This document shows positions 10,548 to 45,700 of a DNA stretch of 52,895 nucleotides, in pieces; position 1 is the stretch's first letter; each line of letters begins with the position of its first letter. The stretch is taken from the NCBI RefSeq assembly GCF_900070205.1, contig NZ_FAOO01000004.1:1-52895 (forward strand), read 5' to 3'. The position numbers were made by a program, and so were the translations under genes. The DNA is from Candidatus Thermokryptus mobilis. GTDB taxonomy: Bacteria; Bacteroidota; Ignavibacteria; Kryptoniales; Kryptoniaceae. The notes below the pieces were generated by a model, which saw only the letters and a program-made list of their open reading frames with translations, did no database searches and was not told the origin of the DNA.

Positions 10548-11182
10548 TTTTCGGCTTCTTTTTTATTTTTTGAAATCCCATCAAATATGATTTCAAGAAT
10601 TGAGTCAACTATTCTCTCGGGGGAAGCATCCGAGACCTCATCAATCAAACAACCGTATATAACATCCCTTAACATCCCGTTAAAAGCCATGATGACGAGG
10701 TTTGGATCGATGTTTTTGAGGTTTCCACTTTTTATGTCGGCTTTGATTATGTCCGTTAAAATTTTTGAGATATGTGATAACCTCTGAAGGACATAATTTC
10801 TTGTTGACTCTTTTTCATCCGATTCCATCTGCATAATCGCTTGTATCATGACATTAAAAGAGAATTTACTTTCGATCAAGAAGAATTTGATGAGTTCGAG
10901 GGCGTAGAATCTCAACCTATCTCTTGCATTTCCTCTTAATCTTTTCGCTTCATCAGCGAGCGATTGAACCCTATCAAAAAGATTCGTCAGGATTTCATTA
11001 AATAGTTGTTTTTTGCTTTTGAAGTAAGAATAGATAGCCCCTTTGCTAAACTGGGCTTGTTCAGCTATTTCCTCCATTGTTGTGTCTTTATAACCCTTTG
11101 TGCCGAAGAGATGCAGAGCAGCTTCAATTATTTCTTGTTTATGCCTTTCCTTGAGGATTTCTCTTCTTTTTGATTTCGCCAA
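10544..11182 (-). CDS. TetR/AcrR-family transcriptional regulator of the efflux operon
   Basis: The 212-residue protein has an N-terminal TetR HTH: KQEIIEAALHLFGTKGYKDT, then TMEEIAEQAQFSKGAIYSYF with the recognition helix SKGAIYSYFKSK around residues 48-60. The rest is an all-helical ligand-binding and dimerisation domain. The start is a TTG; no better ATG restores the HTH. It is the first gene of the tolC-adaptor-RND-PII operon, and dyads in its promoter (11221-11249) suggest autorepression relieved by a pump substrate. The ligand is unknown. Confidence 0.9.
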   Translation of the reverse strand: MAKSKRREILKERHKQEIIEAALHLFGTKGYKDTTMEEIAEQAQFSKGAIYSYFKSKKQLFNEILTNLFDRVQSLADEAKRLRGNARDRLRFYALELIKFFLIESKFSFNVMIQAIMQMESDEKESTRNYVLQRLSHISKILTDIIKADIKSGNLKNIDPNLVIMAFNGMLRDVIYGCLIDEVSDASPERIVDSILEIIFDGISKNKKEAEK

Positions 11183-11329: not shown

Positions 11330-12721
11330 ATGAAATATCTTGAGGATACAATTGTGGCTATTTCAACTGCGATTGGGGAAGCTGCGATTTCGGTAATAAG
11401 GATAAGCGGGAAGGATGCTATAAAAGTTGCCGATAGAGTTTTTGTTGGGAAGAGGAAGCTTGCTGATGTTAAAACGCACACTGCTCACTATGGTAAGATA
11501 GTTGATAAAAATGGTGATGTTGTGGATTATGTTGTTGCGACTGTTTTCAAGGCACCAAATTCTTATACTGGTGAAGATACGGTTGAAATAAGTTGTCATG
11601 GAGGGATATTGGTCACAAGAAAAGTTCTTGAGACGGTTCTTGAAGCTGGGGCACGACTTGCTCAACCGGGTGAGTTTACAAAGAGGGCGTTCTTAAATGG
11701 GAAGATTGATCTATCACAGGCGGAGGCGGTAGCTGACCTTATAAGGTCGGCAACGGAGCTTGCTTATCAAAGCTCGCTTTCTCAACTTGAAGGAGCTCTT
11801 TCAAGAAAGATAAGAAAGATGAGAGAAGATCTTATAAATCTTTGTTCTCTTGTTGAACTTGAGCTTGATTTCGCTGATGAAGACCTTGAATTTGTTGACA
11901 AAGCACAGCTTGCTGAAAAGATAAAAGACGTAATAGGTGAGATAGATGAGTTGATTGAGACATTCAGATTTGGAAAGATTTATCGCGAGGGAATAAAAGT
12001 TGTCATCGCAGGGAAGCCCAACGCTGGTAAATCAAGTTTGTTGAACGCGCTTTTAAATGAGAATAGAGCAATCGTGAGCGAAATCCCTGGGACTACAAGA
12101 GATGTAATTGAGGAGAGTTTGAACATTGAAGGTGTTCTTTTTAGAATCGTTGATACAGCTGGTTTAAGGGAGACATTTGATATAGTTGAACGCGAAGGCG
12201 TGAGAAGAACCGAAGAACAGCTTAAAAAGGCGGATATGATTTTACTTGTCATTGACTCAACAGATGAAATAAATGAAGAAGATGTGAGGATTTATCATCG
12301 TGTTTTAAATTTTGCCGTGGATGAATCAAAAAGATGTATAATTGTTTTCAATAAAGTTGATTTGCTTGATGGCAAGAGACCGAATATGAAGATAATGGTT
12401 GATTTTCCTGTTGTTTATATTTCGGCATTAACTGGATTTGGGCTTGAGAAATTGAAAAAGCTTATGGTTGAGCAATCGTTTTTGGGTATGACTCGGACAG
12501 AGTCAAGCGTTGTCGTCACCAATGTAAGACATAGAGATGCGCTTTTGAGAGCTAAACAAAGTTTGATTTATGCTTTAAGGTCACTTGAGCAGGGTATGAG
12601 TGGAGACCTTGTAGCGGTTGATTTAAGGGCTGGATTGAATCATCTCGGCGAGATAATAGGCGAAGTTACAACGGATGATATTTTGAACAACATATTTTCA
12701 AAGTTTTGCATCGGGAAGTGA
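11330..12721 (+). CDS. mnmE: tRNA uridine-5-carboxymethylaminomethyl modification GTPase
   Basis: With MnmG, MnmE makes the cmnm5 modification at U34 of tRNAs reading split codon boxes, using methylene-THF. The 463-residue protein has the folate-binding N-terminal domain (DTIVAISTAIGEAAISVIRI), a central helical domain carrying an inserted G domain with P-loop GKPNAGKSSLLNAL and DTAG (IVDTAGLRET), NKVD (FNKVDLL), and the C-terminal CIGK motif with the essential Cys. It is the first gene of mnmE-mnmG-rsmG, and a parS site follows its stop. Confidence 0.97.
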   Translation: MKYLEDTIVAISTAIGEAAISVIRISGKDAIKVADRVFVGKRKLADVKTHTAHYGKIVDKNGDVVDYVVATVFKAPNSYTGEDTVEISCHGGILVTRKVLETVLEAGARLAQPGEFTKRAFLNGKIDLSQAEAVADLIRSATELAYQSSLSQLEGALSRKIRKMREDLINLCSLVELELDFADEDLEFVDKAQLAEKIKDVIGEIDELIETFRFGKIYREGIKVVIAGKPNAGKSSLLNALLNENRAIVSEIPGTTRDVIEESLNIEGVLFRIVDTAGLRETFDIVEREGVRRTEEQLKKADMILLVIDSTDEINEEDVRIYHRVLNFAVDESKRCIIVFNKVDLLDGKRPNMKIMVDFPVVYISALTGFGLEKLKKLMVEQSFLGMTRTESSVVVTNVRHRDALLRAKQSLIYALRSLEQGMSGDLVAVDLRAGLNHLGEIIGEVTTDDILNNIFSKFCIGK

Positions 12722-38489: not shown

Positions 38490-38885
38490 ATGGGAAAAGA
38501 GGAGTTTTTGAAGAAGAGAGCGATGGAATTTTACAAATTAGCCCGAAGAAATTTTGAAGATGGTTTTTATAATATCAGCGCTTTTGAAATTGAACAAGCA
38601 TGCCAACTTTATCTTAAATATATCCTTTTCAAGAAAGCTGGTGATTATCCGAAAGTCCATTTTTTGACGATATTGCTTGAGGAATTACACAAAGCGATCG
38701 GCGATATCAGAATAAAGGAATTTTTGAAAGAGAATACCCTTGCATTTCAAAGTATGGAAAGTGCTTATCTCTCGTTAAGGTATCTTGGTAAGGAATACAA
38801 TCGTGATGAAGTTGAATCGCTTTTGGATTTCGCCGATAAACTAGTGAAATTTTTGGGGGAAGTGGCAAATGAAAAGCTTTTATGA
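38490..38885 (+). CDS. HEPN-domain protein of a HEPN/MNT pair
   Basis: The 131-residue all-helical protein fits the HEPN family: ARRNFEDGFYNISAFEIEQACQLYLK near the N-terminus and AYLSLRYLGKEYNRDEVESLL near the C-terminus. HEPN toxins of the HepT type need R-x4-6-H for RNase activity. In the matching place this protein has RYLGKEY with no His, so RNase activity looks unlikely. It overlaps the downstream MNT gene by 17 bp. Such pairs are common in thermophiles and archaea and are often called toxin-antitoxin; here a regulatory or substrate-binding role is as likely. Confidence 0.85.
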   Translation: MGKEEFLKKRAMEFYKLARRNFEDGFYNISAFEIEQACQLYLKYILFKKAGDYPKVHFLTILLEELHKAIGDIRIKEFLKENTLAFQSMESAYLSLRYLGKEYNRDEVESLLDFADKLVKFLGEVANEKLL

Positions 38886-39216
38886 AATAGTCCTTGAGGA
38901 AGCACGGGAGAGGAAAGAATATCTTGAGAATTATTTGATATATGCGCGCGAGATTAAAGAAAGAGCAAAAAAATTGCTTGGAGATGTAAAGGTTTTCGTT
39001 TTCGGCTCTGTTGTCAGCGAAGATTACAACCCTATGAGCGACATTGACATTTTGATAATCTCGGATAGTGTCCCTGATGGAGCGATTGAACAGGCGAAAA
39101 TAAAGGTTTTGCTTACAGAGGGCTTCAAGCCAGGCGTTTTTCAAATTCATCTGGCAAAACCGGATGAATATGAAAACTGGTATAAAAATTTCGTCAAATG
39201 TAAAGTTGAAATTTAA
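38869..39216 (+). CDS. Minimal nucleotidyltransferase (MNT) domain protein
   Basis: The 115-residue protein has the polymerase-beta superfamily motif G-S-x10-D-x-D in FGSVVSEDYNPMSDIDILII (G46 S47, D58, D60). The third acidic position is occupied by the IHLA stretch (FQIHLAKPDEYENWY) seen in many stand-alone thermophile MNTs. MntA-type antitoxins AMPylate their HEPN toxin partners; whether this one does is unknown. It is the second gene of the pair and probably pairs with the HEPN protein. Confidence 0.88.
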   Translation: MKSFYEIVLEEARERKEYLENYLIYAREIKERAKKLLGDVKVFVFGSVVSEDYNPMSDIDILIISDSVPDGAIEQAKIKVLLTEGFKPGVFQIHLAKPDEYENWYKNFVKCKVEI

Positions 39217-39234: not shown

Positions 39235-40014
39235 ATGTATCAAAACATTTTATTTGAGGTCAAAGACAAAATCGCTTATGTTACAATTAACAGACCTGAG
39301 AAATTAAACGCCTTAAATTTCCAGACGATGTCCGAGTTAAGGGATGTTTTTATAAGGATTAAAAATGATGATGACATTTACGCAGTCATCATTACTGGTG
39401 CTGGGGAAAAAGCCTTTGTTGCTGGTGCAGATATTTCTGAACTTAACAAACTTGATGCTGTCACCGGTCGTGAATTCGCAGAGCGTGGGCAGGAAATTTT
39501 CAACTTAATTGAAAACCTTGGAAAACCAGTCATCGCTGCTGTGAATGGATACGCTTTGGGAGGTGGGAGTGAACTTGCTTGGGCTTGTCATTTTAGAATT
39601 GCAGCAGAAAACGCGGTTTTCGGTCAACCCGAAATTGACCTCGGGATAATCCCCGGATATGGTGGGACACAACGACTGACACGACTCGCTGGTAAGACGA
39701 AAGCGATGGAACTCATCCTGACGGGTAGAAGATTTACAGCAAAAGAAGCTTATGAAATGGGGGTCGTAAATAAAGTCGTCCCTCTATCAGAGCTTATGAA
39801 GGAGGCGGAAGAACTCGCAAAGGCGCTTGCATCAAAACCGCAAATCGCGGTTCGTATGGCGATCAAAGCTGTTAATATGGCTTATGAAACAACTTTAACA
39901 GATGGGTTACATCTTGAAGCAACACTCTTCGCTATATGCTGTGGAACGGAGGACTTTAAAGAGGGAACATCTGCATTCCTTGAAAAAAGAAAGCCCGTCT
40001 TCAAGAATAAATGA
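39235..40014 (+). CDS. Enoyl-CoA hydratase/isomerase (crotonase family)
   Basis: The 259-residue crotonase-fold enzyme hydrates 2-enoyl-CoA, or does a related reaction. The oxyanion-hole stretches are FVAGADISEL and AAVNGYALGGGSELAWAC. The second acid segment FGQPEIDLGIIPGYGGTQRL contains the catalytic Glu, and both Glu residues of true hydratases appear present. I chose ATG 39235 because GGAGGG sits 4-5 bp upstream. No beta-oxidation partner is adjacent; the beta-mannosidase gene overlaps the stop by ATGA. Confidence 0.9.
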   Translation: MYQNILFEVKDKIAYVTINRPEKLNALNFQTMSELRDVFIRIKNDDDIYAVIITGAGEKAFVAGADISELNKLDAVTGREFAERGQEIFNLIENLGKPVIAAVNGYALGGGSELAWACHFRIAAENAVFGQPEIDLGIIPGYGGTQRLTRLAGKTKAMELILTGRRFTAKEAYEMGVVNKVVPLSELMKEAEELAKALASKPQIAVRMAIKAVNMAYETTLTDGLHLEATLFAICCGTEDFKEGTSAFLEKRKPVFKNK

Positions 40015-42473
40015 AAAAAATCATTGACCTGAATGGAGAATGGGAGTTTAAGGTCTGTTCTGAAAGTTTTATTCCAGATGAATTAAAACGAAAACTTTTT
40101 AACTGGCAAGTCGCATTTGTCCCAGGAGTTGTGCACCTTGACCTTTTAAGGAGTGGTTTAATCCCCGATCCATTTTTTGAAACAAATGAAAATCTCGTTC
40201 AATGGGTTGATAAAGTTGATTGGGTTTACAGGAAAAGATTTATCGTTGATTTTGATTTCTCTGACTTTCATTCAGTAAAGCTTACCTTTGAAGGGCTTGA
40301 CACAGTTGGAACTGTTAAGTTGAATGGCTTGGAAATTGGCTCGTTTGAAAATATGTTCATTTCGTATTCTTTTGATGTAAAGGGAAATTTAAACCAAGGG
40401 GAGAACGAAGTTGAGGTTGTTTTTAAAGCGCCAACTTTTGTCGCGAAAGAGCTTGAAAATAAATATGGGAAGTTGCTAGTTGAACTTGCTTCCCACAGGG
40501 TTTATCTAAGAAAGGCACAGTATTCATTTGGCTGGGATTGGGGACCGATATTAACAACATCCGGGATTTGGAAGCCGGTTTATATTGAATTTTTGAAGTT
40601 TGCAAGGATAAAGAATGTTTGGTTCAAAACCGTTTCAATATCAAGTTCAAAGGCTGATATTTTTACAGAGATTGAGATTGAAAAATTTACCGATGATGAT
40701 ATTGATTTAGTTCTTACGGTTTTGTCCGAAGGCGAAAAAATTTATGAGAGAAAATTTGTTCAGAAAGGAGGGGATAGGGTAAGGGGACATAGATTTGAAA
40801 TTTATGAGCCGAGATTATGGTTTCCAAGTGGTTATGGGGAGCAGGCACTTTATAACGCGGTCGTTGAAATTTTTAAAGGTGGAGAGTTGATTGATAGAGT
40901 GGAGAAAAAGTTTGGGATAAGAACGGTTCGCTTGATTCAGGAAAAAGATGAGGACGGTGAAAGTTTTATATTTGAGGTAAACGGAGAGAAAATCTTCTGC
41001 AAAGGGGCAAATTGGATTCCGGCGGATAGTTTCTTGCCAAGAGTTAGAAAAGATGATTATGATAAACTACTTGAGATGGCAAAGGAAGCAAACCTAAACA
41101 TGCTTAGGGTTTGGGGTGGCGGGATTTATGAAGATGACTACTTTTATGAAAAGTGTGATGAACTTGGCATAATGATATGGCAGGATTTTATGTTTGCGTG
41201 TGCAAGTTATCCTGAATTTCAAGAGTTCATTGAAAATGTCAAAAATGAAGCAATACAAGTCGTCAAGCGCTTGAGGAATCACCCGTCAATAGTAATTTGG
41301 TGCGGGAACAATGAAAACGAGTGGATATGGGTTGATAAAACCGGGAAATCTCCAGATGAAATGCCAGGGGCAAGTATTTTTAACGAGATTTTACCATCCG
41401 TTTGCGATTCATACGATGGAACAAGACCTTATTGGCGAAGCTCACCCTGGGGGAAGAATTACCCAAATTCTGAGACCGATGGGAATCATCATCAATGGAA
41501 GGTTTGGAGCGGTTGGCTTGATTATAAAAATTATGAATTTGTCAAGGCAAGATTTATAACCGAGTTTGGTTTTCAAAGCCCGCCCCATGTGAAGACTTTA
41601 AATGAAGTTATAAAGCCGGAGAATAGAGATTTTAATTCACCCTCAATCCACCATCGCAATAAACAAGTTGAAGGTATTGAACGACTTTTCAGATTTTTAA
41701 TTGCTCATCATAAAGTTGTTTCTGATTTTGAAGAGCTAATTTATAGGATGCAGTTAAACCAGGCGGAAGCGATAAAATTTGCTGTTGAAAATTGGCGGGT
41801 AAGAAAATTTAAAACTTCGGGGACAATTTTCTGGCAGTGGAACGATCCTTGGCCTGTGATAAGTTGGTCAGCAATTGATTATAAGAGGAGACCGAAAGCG
41901 TTGTATTTCTTCGCAAAAAAATTTTTCAGCCCAGTTCTGTTAGTGATTAAAAAAGTTGAGGATAGAGCGCAAATTTTTATCGTTAATGATTTGCTGAACC
42001 CTATCTCGTGTGGGGTTATAATCAAGACGATGACGACGAGAGGGGAGGTGAAATTTTTTAGTAAGTTTAATGCCAGCGTTAGGGGAAACGATGTCGCTTT
42101 GGCTTTAGATGTCCCTTTAAGTGAATTAAAGGTTGAAGATTTTAAAACGGATTATATCTATGCAAAGCTTGAAGTGGACGGCTCGGTCATAGCTGAAAAT
42201 TCACTTTATTTGACCGAGCCGAAGTTTCTAAAACTTAAAAATCCTGGTTTGAGGTATAAACTCATTAAATCAGACGAGGAAACGCTCACATTAAGAATTA
42301 CATCAAGCGGTCTTGCGAAATCCGTTTTCATAAACTTTGAAAACGGTGATGACATTTGGCTTAGCGATAACTTTTTTGATGTTCACCCATCCGCGACGGT
42401 TGAGATCAAAGTTAAATCAAATAAAAGTGTCGCCGAGTTGTTGAGGTCTCTTCGGATAAAGTATTTGACCTAA
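40011..42473 (+). CDS. Beta-mannosidase, GH family 2
   Basis: The 820-residue protein matches the MANBA-type GH2 layout: an N-terminal jelly roll (LNGEWEFKV, PGVVHLDLLRSGLIPDPFFETNE, SFGWDWGP), Ig-like domains, a TIM barrel and a C-terminal beta domain. The acid/base Glu is E435 in WCGNNENEW and the nucleophile E518 in ITEFGFQS, by comparison with BtMan2A. It should release terminal beta-mannose. There is no signal peptide, so it is probably cytoplasmic. No transporter or other mannan gene is near. It ends 3 bp from the convergent BtuG-like gene. Confidence 0.92.
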   Translation: MKKIIDLNGEWEFKVCSESFIPDELKRKLFNWQVAFVPGVVHLDLLRSGLIPDPFFETNENLVQWVDKVDWVYRKRFIVDFDFSDFHSVKLTFEGLDTVGTVKLNGLEIGSFENMFISYSFDVKGNLNQGENEVEVVFKAPTFVAKELENKYGKLLVELASHRVYLRKAQYSFGWDWGPILTTSGIWKPVYIEFLKFARIKNVWFKTVSISSSKADIFTEIEIEKFTDDDIDLVLTVLSEGEKIYERKFVQKGGDRVRGHRFEIYEPRLWFPSGYGEQALYNAVVEIFKGGELIDRVEKKFGIRTVRLIQEKDEDGESFIFEVNGEKIFCKGANWIPADSFLPRVRKDDYDKLLEMAKEANLNMLRVWGGGIYEDDYFYEKCDELGIMIWQDFMFACASYPEFQEFIENVKNEAIQVVKRLRNHPSIVIWCGNNENEWIWVDKTGKSPDEMPGASIFNEILPSVCDSYDGTRPYWRSSPWGKNYPNSETDGNHHQWKVWSGWLDYKNYEFVKARFITEFGFQSPPHVKTLNEVIKPENRDFNSPSIHHRNKQVEGIERLFRFLIAHHKVVSDFEELIYRMQLNQAEAIKFAVENWRVRKFKTSGTIFWQWNDPWPVISWSAIDYKRRPKALYFFAKKFFSPVLLVIKKVEDRAQIFIVNDLLNPISCGVIIKTMTTRGEVKFFSKFNASVRGNDVALALDVPLSELKVEDFKTDYIYAKLEVDGSVIAENSLYLTEPKFLKLKNPGLRYKLIKSDEETLTLRITSSGLAKSVFINFENGDDIWLSDNFFDVHPSATVEIKVKSNKSVAELLRSLRIKYLT

Positions 42474-42476
42474 AAT

Positions 42477-43520
42477 TTAATTTACAAAGCCAAACGAGCT
42501 TGGGATTACTCCAACTTGAAATTTTTTTATGAACTTACCGCTTAAATCGTAGACATAAACTTCACCTTTCCGGACATAATCTTTTGCATCGGCGCAATAT
42601 AAAAGTTTGTTCAAGATATCAATCCCAAGGGAATAGAAATTTCCTTCTATGAAGTTTTCTTGAATTTCTTTCGTTGAAAGGTTTATCCTTGCGATATTTC
42701 CGTCTTTTATCGTATAAGCAAAGCCCTCTAAAATGACGAGTCGTGAGGGATGACCACCAACTATTATTGAATCAACGATGTTGTCAGTTGTGATGTCAAT
42801 AGCGAACATTTTCCCGTATGTATCATCATCTGGGTTTTGCCAGTCACCGTATGAACCATAACATAAAACCCACAGGCGATTTTTGCTTTCCTCTAATGCG
42901 AAAGCATCAGGACCATCGTGAAGTTTAATTTCTTTTATGACTTTATCGGTTTGGGGATTTATCACTGAAACTCGGTTATCGTAACCGAAGCCAGAGTTAG
43001 CGACATAAATTTTACCATTTATGGAGAAAATCCCCGTCGGATTGTTTCCGACTTTCAAAGTGTCAATTAAAACCGAACCAGTGTTAACATCTATCACAGT
43101 GACGGCATTTCTATATAAGTTCGTTACATATCCCTTTGTCCCCCAAATTGCAATTTTATATGGGCTTGCGTTTGGAGTTAATATGGTCCTTAGCCATTTA
43201 TGTGTAATTGGTTCTATGACTTCAATTTTATCAGAGTTATTCACAACGATGTAAACTCTATTTCCTGCTATAACGATGTCATTTCCTGTATCCCCAAGGT
43301 TTCTACCGTTGACCTGATAAAAAACATCTTCGTATACAAGATTTGAATCCGGGATGTAATAGCTTAGTGTTGAATTGTTGCGTCCGAAATTCCCCTCATT
43401 TAGAATATATACACCTTTTAGCTTCGGTGTTTCTGAAGTCAATGGTTCACTTTTTTTGCAGCTGTTCAGACTTAAAAGCAAAATGATTGAGAGCACGAGA
43501 AACGATTTTAGAGGCTTCAT
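42477..43520 (-). CDS. Surface-type beta-propeller lipoprotein, BtuG/DUF5074-like, candidate cobalamin capture protein
   Basis: The 347-residue protein has a lipoprotein signal ending LNSC with the lipidated Cys at residue 21, followed by KKSE. The mature part starts GVYILNEGNFGRNNSTLSYY, a hallmark of the DUF5074/YncE-like propeller family. Repeated blades follow (YIVVNNSDKIEVI, GYVTNLYRNAVTVIDV, IYVANSGFGYDNRVSVI, LWVLCYGSYGD). In Bacteroides, BtuG lipoproteins of this fold bind B12 very tightly on the cell surface and sit next to btuB. Here it follows btuB by 14 bp under a cobalamin riboswitch, which supports the same role. Direct B12 binding is inferred. Confidence 0.85.
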   Translation of the reverse strand: MKPLKSFLVLSIILLLSLNSCKKSEPLTSETPKLKGVYILNEGNFGRNNSTLSYYIPDSNLVYEDVFYQVNGRNLGDTGNDIVIAGNRVYIVVNNSDKIEVIEPITHKWLRTILTPNASPYKIAIWGTKGYVTNLYRNAVTVIDVNTGSVLIDTLKVGNNPTGIFSINGKIYVANSGFGYDNRVSVINPQTDKVIKEIKLHDGPDAFALEESKNRLWVLCYGSYGDWQNPDDDTYGKMFAIDITTDNIVDSIIVGGHPSRLVILEGFAYTIKDGNIARINLSTKEIQENFIEGNFYSLGIDILNKLLYCADAKDYVRKGEVYVYDLSGKFIKKFQVGVIPSSFGFVN

Positions 43521-43534
43521 TTCTAATCTCCTTT

Positions 43535-45700
43535 TTAGTTTTTGTTTTTTCTTTTTAATCCAGATGTGATTTCAAAGAAGAAACTCCGCAGTGGCATAGG
43601 ATAGCCGATCATTGTCTCATAATTTTCATTTAGCAAATTCTTAACAGAGAATTTCGCTTTGCCGAAGAAGAACCCAATTTCATAGTTGAAGCCACAGGAT
43701 AAATCAACCACATAATACGGATTGAGCCATCTATCATTTGTTTCGCTTGTGTATCTTAAGCCAGTATAATTTACTTGTGAGATGAAAAAGAAATTACCGA
43801 GTTCAACTTCAAGTTTGAGGTTGCCCGTTGATTTTGGGATGTAAATGAGGTATTTATTTTGTGTTTCGTCGTCTTGCGTTCTTTTATTGCGTCTTATACT
43901 TTCAAGGATTGAAAAATTCCCGGCGATGTTTATGAGTTTCAGAAGTTTCATCTCGCCAGCGAATTCAATTCCCCTTGAATTTACTTCATCAATGTTTATG
44001 GGTCTCCATATTGATTGATTTTCACGCGAAGGTAACCAAACAATTCTGTTAGTTATGTTTATGTTGAAAAGTGAAATCTCTAATTTTAGCGAGGGGATTA
44101 GGCTTTTTTTAAGCGAGGAGAAAAACACAAAACCAAAGTCAATCCCTTTTGATGTTTCTGACTTCAGATTTTTATTCCCGCTCCCAAGCCAGTAAAGGTC
44201 GTTAAATGTCGGCGCGCGAAAACCAGTGCCGTAGGAAAATTTTAAGTTTAAAATCGGATCATCAACGAGCTTAATGTTAAGTCCAGCCCTGTAAACGGTT
44301 CTGCTACCAAAATCCGAGAAATAATCGTTTCGTATCATTGGATAAATTTTTATCTCCGGTAAAAATTTTAATTTAAAGTTTCCCTCCGCCCCGATAAATA
44401 AGCCGATGTTAAATCTTTTCGCCTTTTCAAATGAATTTCCCTGCGCCAAGCCGAAAGAGGTTTCTATGCCAGATGAGATCAAAAAATTTTGTCTTAACTT
44501 GAAAAGTGCGTTCACAAGGTTGGAGTAGAAAAGATTATGGTAATAACTATCAATCCCAGACCCTGCTATGATGATGTCGTTGTTTGTGTATCTGAGGTAA
44601 GAGTTTTTGTATAGGAAGTTCATCTTGATTGTTGATTTTGCGGTTGTCTTTAGCGTTGAAATGGATAGTGTTAAGTCCCAGTCAAGTTGACTTGCTGTGC
44701 TCGCTGGGTCAAATTTGGTCGTTTGTGAGGGTATCCCACGATTTGAACGCATATAAACGAAAGATAAAGATGTGTTTTGAGCTGAAATGTCAAAATATAA
44801 ATTTGTGATGCTGAAGTGGGCGTTCTTTCGTCTTAAATTTATCTCATCGTTGCCAATTTTGTACTTGTATTTAAAATCCCCCGAACCGTAACTTCGCGTA
44901 AATGAACCAAGATAAGTCAAAGTTCCAAATTCACCCGATATGTTTGAGTTAAACTTCCTATATCCGAAATCCCCACTTCCAACGGTTAACTCAAGGGACT
45001 TTCCGAGGTTTTCACCTTTCGTGATTATGTTTATAACTCCGCCGATCGCATCAGCCCCGTAAAGTGAGGATATGTTTGAATGGATCACCTCAACTCTATC
45101 AATAATCTCAACAGGGATTAAACTTAAATCAACGATGCCATTTTGATAGCTTGATATTCTCATCCCGTTTAAAAGGAATATGCTATGTTCCGATCCAGTT
45201 CCACGAAGTGATATCGTTTTCAACTGGGCTGGCATTCCACCATAATCGCGAATATAAGCCGATGTTAAGTTTTTTAAAATGTCCGAAAAGGAAAGCGTTT
45301 TTACTTTTTCTATATCTTCGCTTTTGACGATCTCAACAAAATTTGATACATCAAACGAATTCGTTTCATATCTTGTCGCTGTTACTATTACCTCCCCAAA
45401 TTTAAATGTCATCGGTTCAAGCGAAATGAAAAGTAGCGTATCGGTGTGAACTCTTATTTCTTTTTCAAATGGTTCATAAGCGATGTGTTTTGCGCTTATT
45501 TTGAATATCCCTGGTTTAACTTTGAAGTTGAAGAAACCAATGGTGTCAGAAATTGTTTTTAAATGTGTGCTTTCGCCCTTTATTTCAACCACTGCATCCT
45601 TTACTGGGTTTTCATCGGGGTTTATGACATATCCACTTATCTTGACATTTTGAGCCCAGAGGGTCAGTGCGATAAAAATTGATGCGATGATTTTTTTCAC
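43535..45700 (-). CDS. btuB: TonB-dependent outer-membrane receptor, probable cobalamin transporter
   Basis: The 721-residue protein has a signal peptide (MKKIIASIFIALTLWAQ) and a carboxypeptidase-regulatory-like domain (about 20-92, KISGYVINPDENPVKDAVVEIKG). A plug domain follows (about 105-235, VIVTATRYETNSFDV, LRGTGSEHSIFLLNGMRI, SSLYGADAIGGVINIITKG) and then a beta barrel. The substrate is inferred from the upstream cobalamin riboswitch and the downstream BtuG-like gene. The start is a GTG with no ribosome-binding site visible, not unusual for this bacterial group. No TonB, ExbB or BtuCD genes are in the window. Confidence 0.9.
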   Translation of the reverse strand: MKKIIASIFIALTLWAQNVKISGYVINPDENPVKDAVVEIKGESTHLKTISDTIGFFNFKVKPGIFKISAKHIAYEPFEKEIRVHTDTLLFISLEPMTFKFGEVIVTATRYETNSFDVSNFVEIVKSEDIEKVKTLSFSDILKNLTSAYIRDYGGMPAQLKTISLRGTGSEHSIFLLNGMRISSYQNGIVDLSLIPVEIIDRVEVIHSNISSLYGADAIGGVINIITKGENLGKSLELTVGSGDFGYRKFNSNISGEFGTLTYLGSFTRSYGSGDFKYKYKIGNDEINLRRKNAHFSITNLYFDISAQNTSLSFVYMRSNRGIPSQTTKFDPASTASQLDWDLTLSISTLKTTAKSTIKMNFLYKNSYLRYTNNDIIIAGSGIDSYYHNLFYSNLVNALFKLRQNFLISSGIETSFGLAQGNSFEKAKRFNIGLFIGAEGNFKLKFLPEIKIYPMIRNDYFSDFGSRTVYRAGLNIKLVDDPILNLKFSYGTGFRAPTFNDLYWLGSGNKNLKSETSKGIDFGFVFFSSLKKSLIPSLKLEISLFNINITNRIVWLPSRENQSIWRPINIDEVNSRGIEFAGEMKLLKLINIAGNFSILESIRRNKRTQDDETQNKYLIYIPKSTGNLKLEVELGNFFFISQVNYTGLRYTSETNDRWLNPYYVVDLSCGFNYEIGFFFGKAKFSVKNLLNENYETMIGYPMPLRSFFFEITSGLKRKNKN

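Follow-up and report, generated by a model that had tools for sequence, protein, structure and literature searches.

A putative BtuG-type lid beside a riboswitch-controlled BtuB in the thermophile Candidatus Thermokryptus mobilis

The closest described relatives of the system reported here are the BtuBG complexes of Bacteroides, in which the lipoprotein BtuG serves as lid of the vitamin B12 transporter BtuB. According to the text of Abellon-Ruiz 2023 (PMC10404256), residues Asn54-Thr64 of BtuG2 form a 'plier' loop, loop EL8 of BtuB has a known role in the complex, and BtuG2 has a net charge of -18; the published Bacteroides complexes, in that account, were seen only closed. We treat the long-range electrostatic steering described for BtuG2 as a property of that protein and not of the family. 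In Wexler 2018 (PMC6143338), 313 human-gut genomes were searched and BtuG was called exclusive to Bacteroidetes. The view in the initial annotation of our locus that BtuG is known mainly from human-gut Bacteroides is partly a matter of sampling, those 313 genomes all being from the human gut. We found no report of a BtuG from a thermophile in the open-access literature, most subscription papers lying outside this search.

The btuB-btuG locus and the family of the btuG product

The pair lies on the minus strand of the window (the whole analyzed stretch of 52,895 nucleotides from Candidatus Thermokryptus mobilis), with btuB upstream and 15 bases between the two genes. The features are as follows, in window positions:

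42477-43520 including the stop codon, minus strand: predicted btuG ortholog, DUF5074 propeller lipoprotein, 347 residues, ATG start (Pfam, PDB, fold, tree)
43458-43520, minus strand: signal peptide and lipobox, residues 1-21, with Cys21 the predicted lipidation site (LNS|CKKSEP; alignment)
43368-43400, minus strand: NEGNFGRNNST loop (residues 41-51), the counterpart of the 'plier' loop formed by Asn54-Thr64 in BtuG2 (alignment; role as given in the text of PMC10404256)
42576-42851, minus strand: stretch with Tyr224, His257, Tyr296 and Tyr315, equivalent to BtuG2 Tyr239, Trp272, Tyr316 and Tyr335 (alignment; BtuG2 roles as given in the text of PMC10404256)
43535-45700, minus strand: btuB, TonB-dependent transporter, 721 residues, GTG start (Pfam, NCBIfam, PDB sequence, fold)
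45422-45646, minus strand: BtuB N-terminal CarboxypepD_reg-like domain, residues 19-93 (Pfam; alignment columns)
43961-44059, minus strand: BtuB EL8 neighborhood, residues 548-580, with Trp565 at the BtuB3 Tyr538 position (alignment; role as given in the text of PMC10404256)
45844-46049, minus strand: cobalamin riboswitch aptamer RF00174, 107.1 bits, upstream of btuB (RNA family scan)

A genome scan identified this aptamer as the sole cobalamin riboswitch match in the 2.42-Mb assembly. As the downstream neighbor of btuG is a convergent ORF (40011-42473, plus strand), the transcript most likely comprises btuB and btuG only. The convergent ORF encodes a large protein of glycoside hydrolase family 2 that carries mannosidase Ig domains (Pfam), and elsewhere in the window two small overlapping ORFs (38490-38885 and 38869-39216) make up what we take to resemble a HEPN/MNT (nucleotidyltransferase) pair. 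GC skew over window positions 1-52000 is ~+0.3 at 12-36 kb and near zero toward both ends.

The initial annotation had seen a DUF5074-type propeller lipoprotein directly after a riboswitch-controlled btuB, and this description stands: next to the short intergenic gap and the aptamer score, the protein matched PF16819 (Pfam) with 68.6 bits against a cut-off of 27.2. The top 12 matches in a PDB sequence search were BtuG chains, the Bacteroides uniformis relative 3DSM or members of the same 8b/8o/8p entry series, the best being to 8bmx_D (BtuG2; 3.7e-32). The comparison with BtuG2 by structure prediction that had been proposed as a check came out in the same direction. An AlphaFold2 model with a mean pLDDT of 93.2 (input alignment of 47 sequences) matched only BtuG1, BtuG2, BtuG3 or 3DSM at Foldseek ranks 1-16, after which came BtuK1 and a surface-layer propeller of the YVTN type; E. 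coli YncE ranked 45th. By VIA-align the BtuG entries reached Z-scores of 38-40, the next propeller 33.6 and E. coli YncE 28.5; all 977 aligned chains had a Z of at least 8, so that the fold class itself is little informative and it is the step below 38-40 that counts. The lipobox cysteine (LNS-C21) is invariant across the 47 aligned sequences, the window protein among them. Where a surface export signal might lie, the non-acidic C-K-K-S-E at and after this cysteine is kept in 6/6 genus members; the residues that follow it are acidic in some relatives (e.g., SDDD), against KKSE in the window protein.

An unrelated propeller of the YncE/YVTN type, standing beside btuB by chance, would also be expected to score against the YVTN repeats of TIGR02276, as the window protein does (69.2 bits), and E. 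coli yncE likewise adjoins a gene for a TonB-dependent receptor, pqqU; however, the YncE equivalog NF052280 gave 29.6 of the 400 bits needed and the gene order with btuB is conserved (see below). To count the residues characteristic of the family we used 57 BtuG-like rows from outside the genus, which gave 87 consensus columns in which at least 60% of the rows share the majority residue. The window protein has the consensus residue in 73 of them and BtuG2, a fragment without its N-terminus, in 54, in contrast to E. coli YncE with 21 and the YncE-like propeller encoded by the genome itself with 33. This second propeller (L122:2532-3527, contig C4 near 131 kb) has no evident lipobox and was used as an outgroup in a midpoint-rooted tree of 66 proteins, the others being E. 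coli YncE and 64 BtuG-like rows. Grouping with unrelated YncE propellers had been named beforehand as the outcome that would count against a BtuG; instead, the branch between the two YncE-type rows and the 64 BtuG-like rows had support of 100/94, both outgroup rows being long-branched. On family scores, tree and gene order we reject an unrelated neighbor, a reading we consider very improbable, and chance as an explanation of the ORF is excluded, on the sequence evidence, by its length, its profile score and the conserved synteny. We are confident that the 42477-43520 product is a BtuG ortholog, predicted to be a seven-bladed propeller with a lipid anchor and to serve as outer lid of the adjacent B12 transporter BtuB; the sequence or the model shows the gene order, the riboswitch, the family membership, the predicted fold and the lipobox. 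Points that speak against it are the changed pocket aromatics and net charge described below, the KKSE after Cys21, the 31% identity to BtuG2, and the scores of BtuB and of the BtuC-like and BtuF-like proteins, which are below their NCBIfam cut-offs.

Within the tree the window protein grouped with its genus (100/100), and the genus in turn joined family f2 of its order and three other members of its class in a group of 16 (99/97); BtuG2 grouped with one sequence of Muribaculaceae, one of Bacteroidales and one further sequence (100/100). The class of the window did not form one group, its family f3 joining Bacteroidia rows weakly (87/77), and sequences of Sphingobacteriaceae/f36 formed a second deep group. 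Duplications, losses or transfers are therefore possible, and these three features argue against simple vertical descent of btuG.

Corrinoid-binding face and partner transporter

For the binding face we took as reference those residues of BtuG2 that Abellon-Ruiz 2023 (PMC10404256) names in its text. The plier loop aligns to NEGNFGRNNST with NEGNF kept, and the pocket tyrosines Tyr239, Tyr316 and Tyr335 are kept as Tyr224, Tyr296 and Tyr315, these columns holding Tyr in 21/47, 41/47 and 28/47 rows, respectively. The aromatic residues Trp272 and Trp194 are changed: the former is His257 in the window protein, and the latter aligns by MAFFT to Ser176, Phe178 fitting equally well by eye. Since the Trp272 column is mostly occupied by other residues (His, the commonest, in 18 of the 47 rows, Ser in 7, Thr in 6 and Gly in 6), Trp272 is not a family-wide feature. 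The mature window protein has a net charge of -4; values range from -4 to +1 within the genus and from -23 to -1 in twelve other BtuG-like proteins. With blade limits that we set ourselves, the mean majority fraction was 0.47-0.57 in blades 1-4 and 0.40-0.47 in blades 5-7; this would agree, weakly, with blades 1-4 as the source of the hydrogen bonds.

A lid that derives from BtuG and continues to cap BtuB could nonetheless bind corrinoids much more weakly than BtuG2, or prefer another corrinoid, and so give no ultra-tight capture. We consider this unlikely, as the NEGNF loop and the three tyrosines are kept, most of the family-consensus residues (73/87) are present and a B12 riboswitch governs the locus, although the altered aromatics (Trp272 to His257, Trp194 to Ser176 or Phe178) and the small negative charge of the protein and its genus would fit such a lid, as would the many BtuGs, His-bearing or otherwise, without Trp at the Trp272 column. 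For the window BtuG, corrinoid binding is predicted, and the altered pocket and charge make the affinity worth measuring. The differences that merit bench work are the Trp272 to His change, the altered Trp194, the charge of -4 against the published -18 and an extra N-terminal domain in the BtuBs of the genus.

The partner BtuB matched the TonB plug and barrel domains of Pfam, and its best PDB sequence match was B. thetaiotaomicron BtuB1 (6.5e-40). Its model (pLDDT 86.4) likewise had BtuB1 as best Foldseek match (8.4e-41), with chains of BtuB1, BtuB3 and BtuB2 ahead of E. coli BtuB. The TonB-B12 equivalog TIGR01779 scored 203.1 bits, below its cut-off of 599.7, yet it was the top NCBIfam match. 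In EL8 the window BtuB has Trp565 where BtuB3 has Tyr538 and BtuB1 a Trp, and in a 34-row alignment the neighborhood of this loop is slightly longer in the genus than in the other BtuBs. The EL8 aromatic lies in a region with features common to TonB receptors, and we give minor weight to the [WFY]xPxN pattern that the window BtuB shares with BtuB2 and BtuB3. The columns of the N-terminal CarboxypepD_reg-like domain are filled in 6/6 genus BtuBs, whereas the remaining 28 of the 34 rows fill them to 17% at most, two Pfam models for it matching 5/34 and 4/34 BtuBs. BtuG and BtuB distances were correlated (r = 0.91 over 34 loci and 0.87 over 25 dereplicated loci, with 0/2000 permutations as high), for which common species history alone could suffice.

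Host genome and a proposed route of B12 uptake

The genome (97.5% complete; no SSU rRNA match was found in the assembly) encodes a full-length reverse gyrase:

Contig C3:172183-175311 of the window genome (G000), loci L058 and L059: reverse gyrase (profile search)

This 1165-residue open frame scored 951.9 bits including its in-frame neighbor, against a cut-off of 471.7, and backs thermophily in the earlier view of the host as a probably free-living thermophile. Eloe-Fadrosh 2016 (PMC4737851) reports a reverse gyrase for all 'Ca. Kryptonia' genomes. We also tried amino-acid make-up as an indicator, and rejected it as too noisy (74 °C for the window and 43-60 °C for stretches of sister species), so the case for thermophily rests on reverse gyrase. 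Such growth-temperature estimates come from the IVYWREL formula.

Two ORFs of 565 and 596 residues represent methylmalonyl-CoA mutase; a stand-alone B12 domain of the mutase type scored above its cut-off, as did a PduO adenosyltransferase. There is one FecCD permease, whose best named match is BtuC (247 of 461 bits). Of two PF01497 proteins, the better reached 123 of 234 bits against BtuF, its top NCBIfam match being another ABC binding protein, TIGR04281; all of these are under the NCBIfam equivalog cut-offs, and the BtuC-like and BtuF-like genes lie at separate places. A search of the genome identified no CbiC, one marker of B12 synthesis, and no B12-binding domain of the MetH type, the two B12-binding-domain matches being the mutase domain and a radical SAM protein. 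Given the lack of CbiC and the presence of BtuC-like and BtuF-like proteins, PduO and the mutases, the host is likely an importer and user of B12.

By analogy with Bacteroides BtuBG, scarcity of B12 would lead the riboswitch to allow btuB-btuG expression, and the corrin ring would be held by the BtuG face of blades 1-4 and the Asn41-Thr51 loop. The BtuG lid would then close on BtuB, EL8 with its Trp565 would displace the corrinoid from BtuG, and TonB would drive it into the periplasm. From there the BtuF-like and BtuC-like proteins, whose genes lie outside this locus, would carry it inward for conversion by PduO to adenosylcobalamin, to be used by methylmalonyl-CoA mutase. In all likelihood, if the Bacteroides systems are a guide, the BtuG ortholog would catch B12 as the lid of BtuB, in a B12-importing thermophile with reverse gyrase.

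Spread, origin and comparison with known systems

Beyond the window, the btuB-btuG pair is present in five sister species and is widespread in Bacteroidota. In the genus, 6/7 genomes including that of the window have btuG, the one without it being 71% complete. Matches at an E-value of 0.001 were present in 48/61 genomes of relatives, and 281/392 genomes (152/179 genera) of a phylum sample had a match, both counts being upper bounds for BtuG that include weak matches to other propellers. The DUF5074 profile also reaches other propellers; among fourteen control genomes, which with Bacteroidota made up the scope of the homolog search, it had matches in Escherichia coli, Bacteroides ihuae and Methanosarcina acetivorans, above the cut-off in two. 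A btuB-like gene adjoined btuG in 20/20 stretches from relatives in the genus, order and class (L064-L083), chosen by us among the 48 matching genomes. Among 21 named loci (L002-L022) btuB was at the btuG locus in 18, the misses being L022 and two loci that start close to the end of a contig, L004 and L010; the gap was 0.9-2.0 kb in L014, L016 and L019, and btuG came first in L015 and L018. Of 17 further phylum loci (L125-L141), chosen by us from strong matches, 16 had the two genes together, the miss being L134. These locus sets overlap slightly (L070 and L012 are the same contig, and the contigs of L128 and L009 are equal in length). A cobalamin riboswitch was located in front of btuB in 17/17 other scanned loci (8/8 and 9/9), eight of them among the 20 stretches. 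L125 has two such riboswitches (10793-11011 and 11713-11926), separated by ~700 bases, ahead of a single btuB-btuG pair. The 21 named loci are all titled Bacteroidota and include Mucilaginibacter and Pedobacter, genera mostly from soil; most MAG titles tell no habitat.

It had been suggested from the window alone that the capture strategy is both wider and older. The first part holds, the unit of btuB, btuG and riboswitch being found in many Bacteroidota, and this wide spread surprises little because the BtuG family is phylum-wide; the two-gene outer-membrane device looks like a general Bacteroidota tool and not a gut invention. The second part is likely, although the gene tree does not hold the class of the window together. 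We speculate, well short of a firm preference, that the common ancestor of Bacteroidota already had the BtuBG device, at a time before animal guts, and that the thermophile genus has a distinct subtype (near-neutral lid, pocket Trp to His change, extra BtuB N-terminal domain) that would capture corrinoids in the heat without the electrostatic steering of BtuG2. If a reverse-gyrase thermophile and soil genera share the riboswitch-controlled device, it is unlikely to have arisen through competition in the dense gut or through theft from intrinsic factor, and the gut is weakened as an explanation of BtuG. Because the published Bacteroides complexes are only closed, a heat-stable BtuBG could aid structural work on the open lid, and it could also act as a robust corrinoid binder in assays.

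Among known systems, the B. thetaiotaomicron proteins BtuG1, BtuG2 and BtuG3 (8bmy, 8bmz, 8bn0, 8ptf, 8okv) share with the window protein the DUF5074 propeller lipoprotein, the btuB neighbor, the cobalamin riboswitch, the NEGNF loop and the three pocket tyrosines. The window protein differs from all three in the CKKSE at and after the lipid cysteine and in its reverse-gyrase host, and from BtuG2 (31% identity) in the His at Trp272, the altered Trp194 region and the charge. The window BtuB is closest in sequence and fold to B. thetaiotaomicron BtuB1 (8blw_A), both having Trp in EL8, but adds the CarboxypepD_reg-like domain and the slightly longer EL8 neighborhood. BtuK1 (9s6c, titled 'B12 Binding protein') shares the propeller fold but is more distant (Foldseek 1.1e-15 and 18% identity, compared with 2.9e-26 for BtuG2), and E. 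coli YncE (3vgz, 7seu), also a beta-propeller encoded beside a TonB-dependent receptor gene, has 18% identity, few of the family residues (21/87) and a separate place in the tree. DUF4465 proteins, with a jelly-roll fold, belong to another family than BtuG; these B12-binding proteins (BtuJ and relatives) are reported from gut, soil and hydrothermal vents (PMC13398666), and they are a precedent for B12 capture outside the gut.
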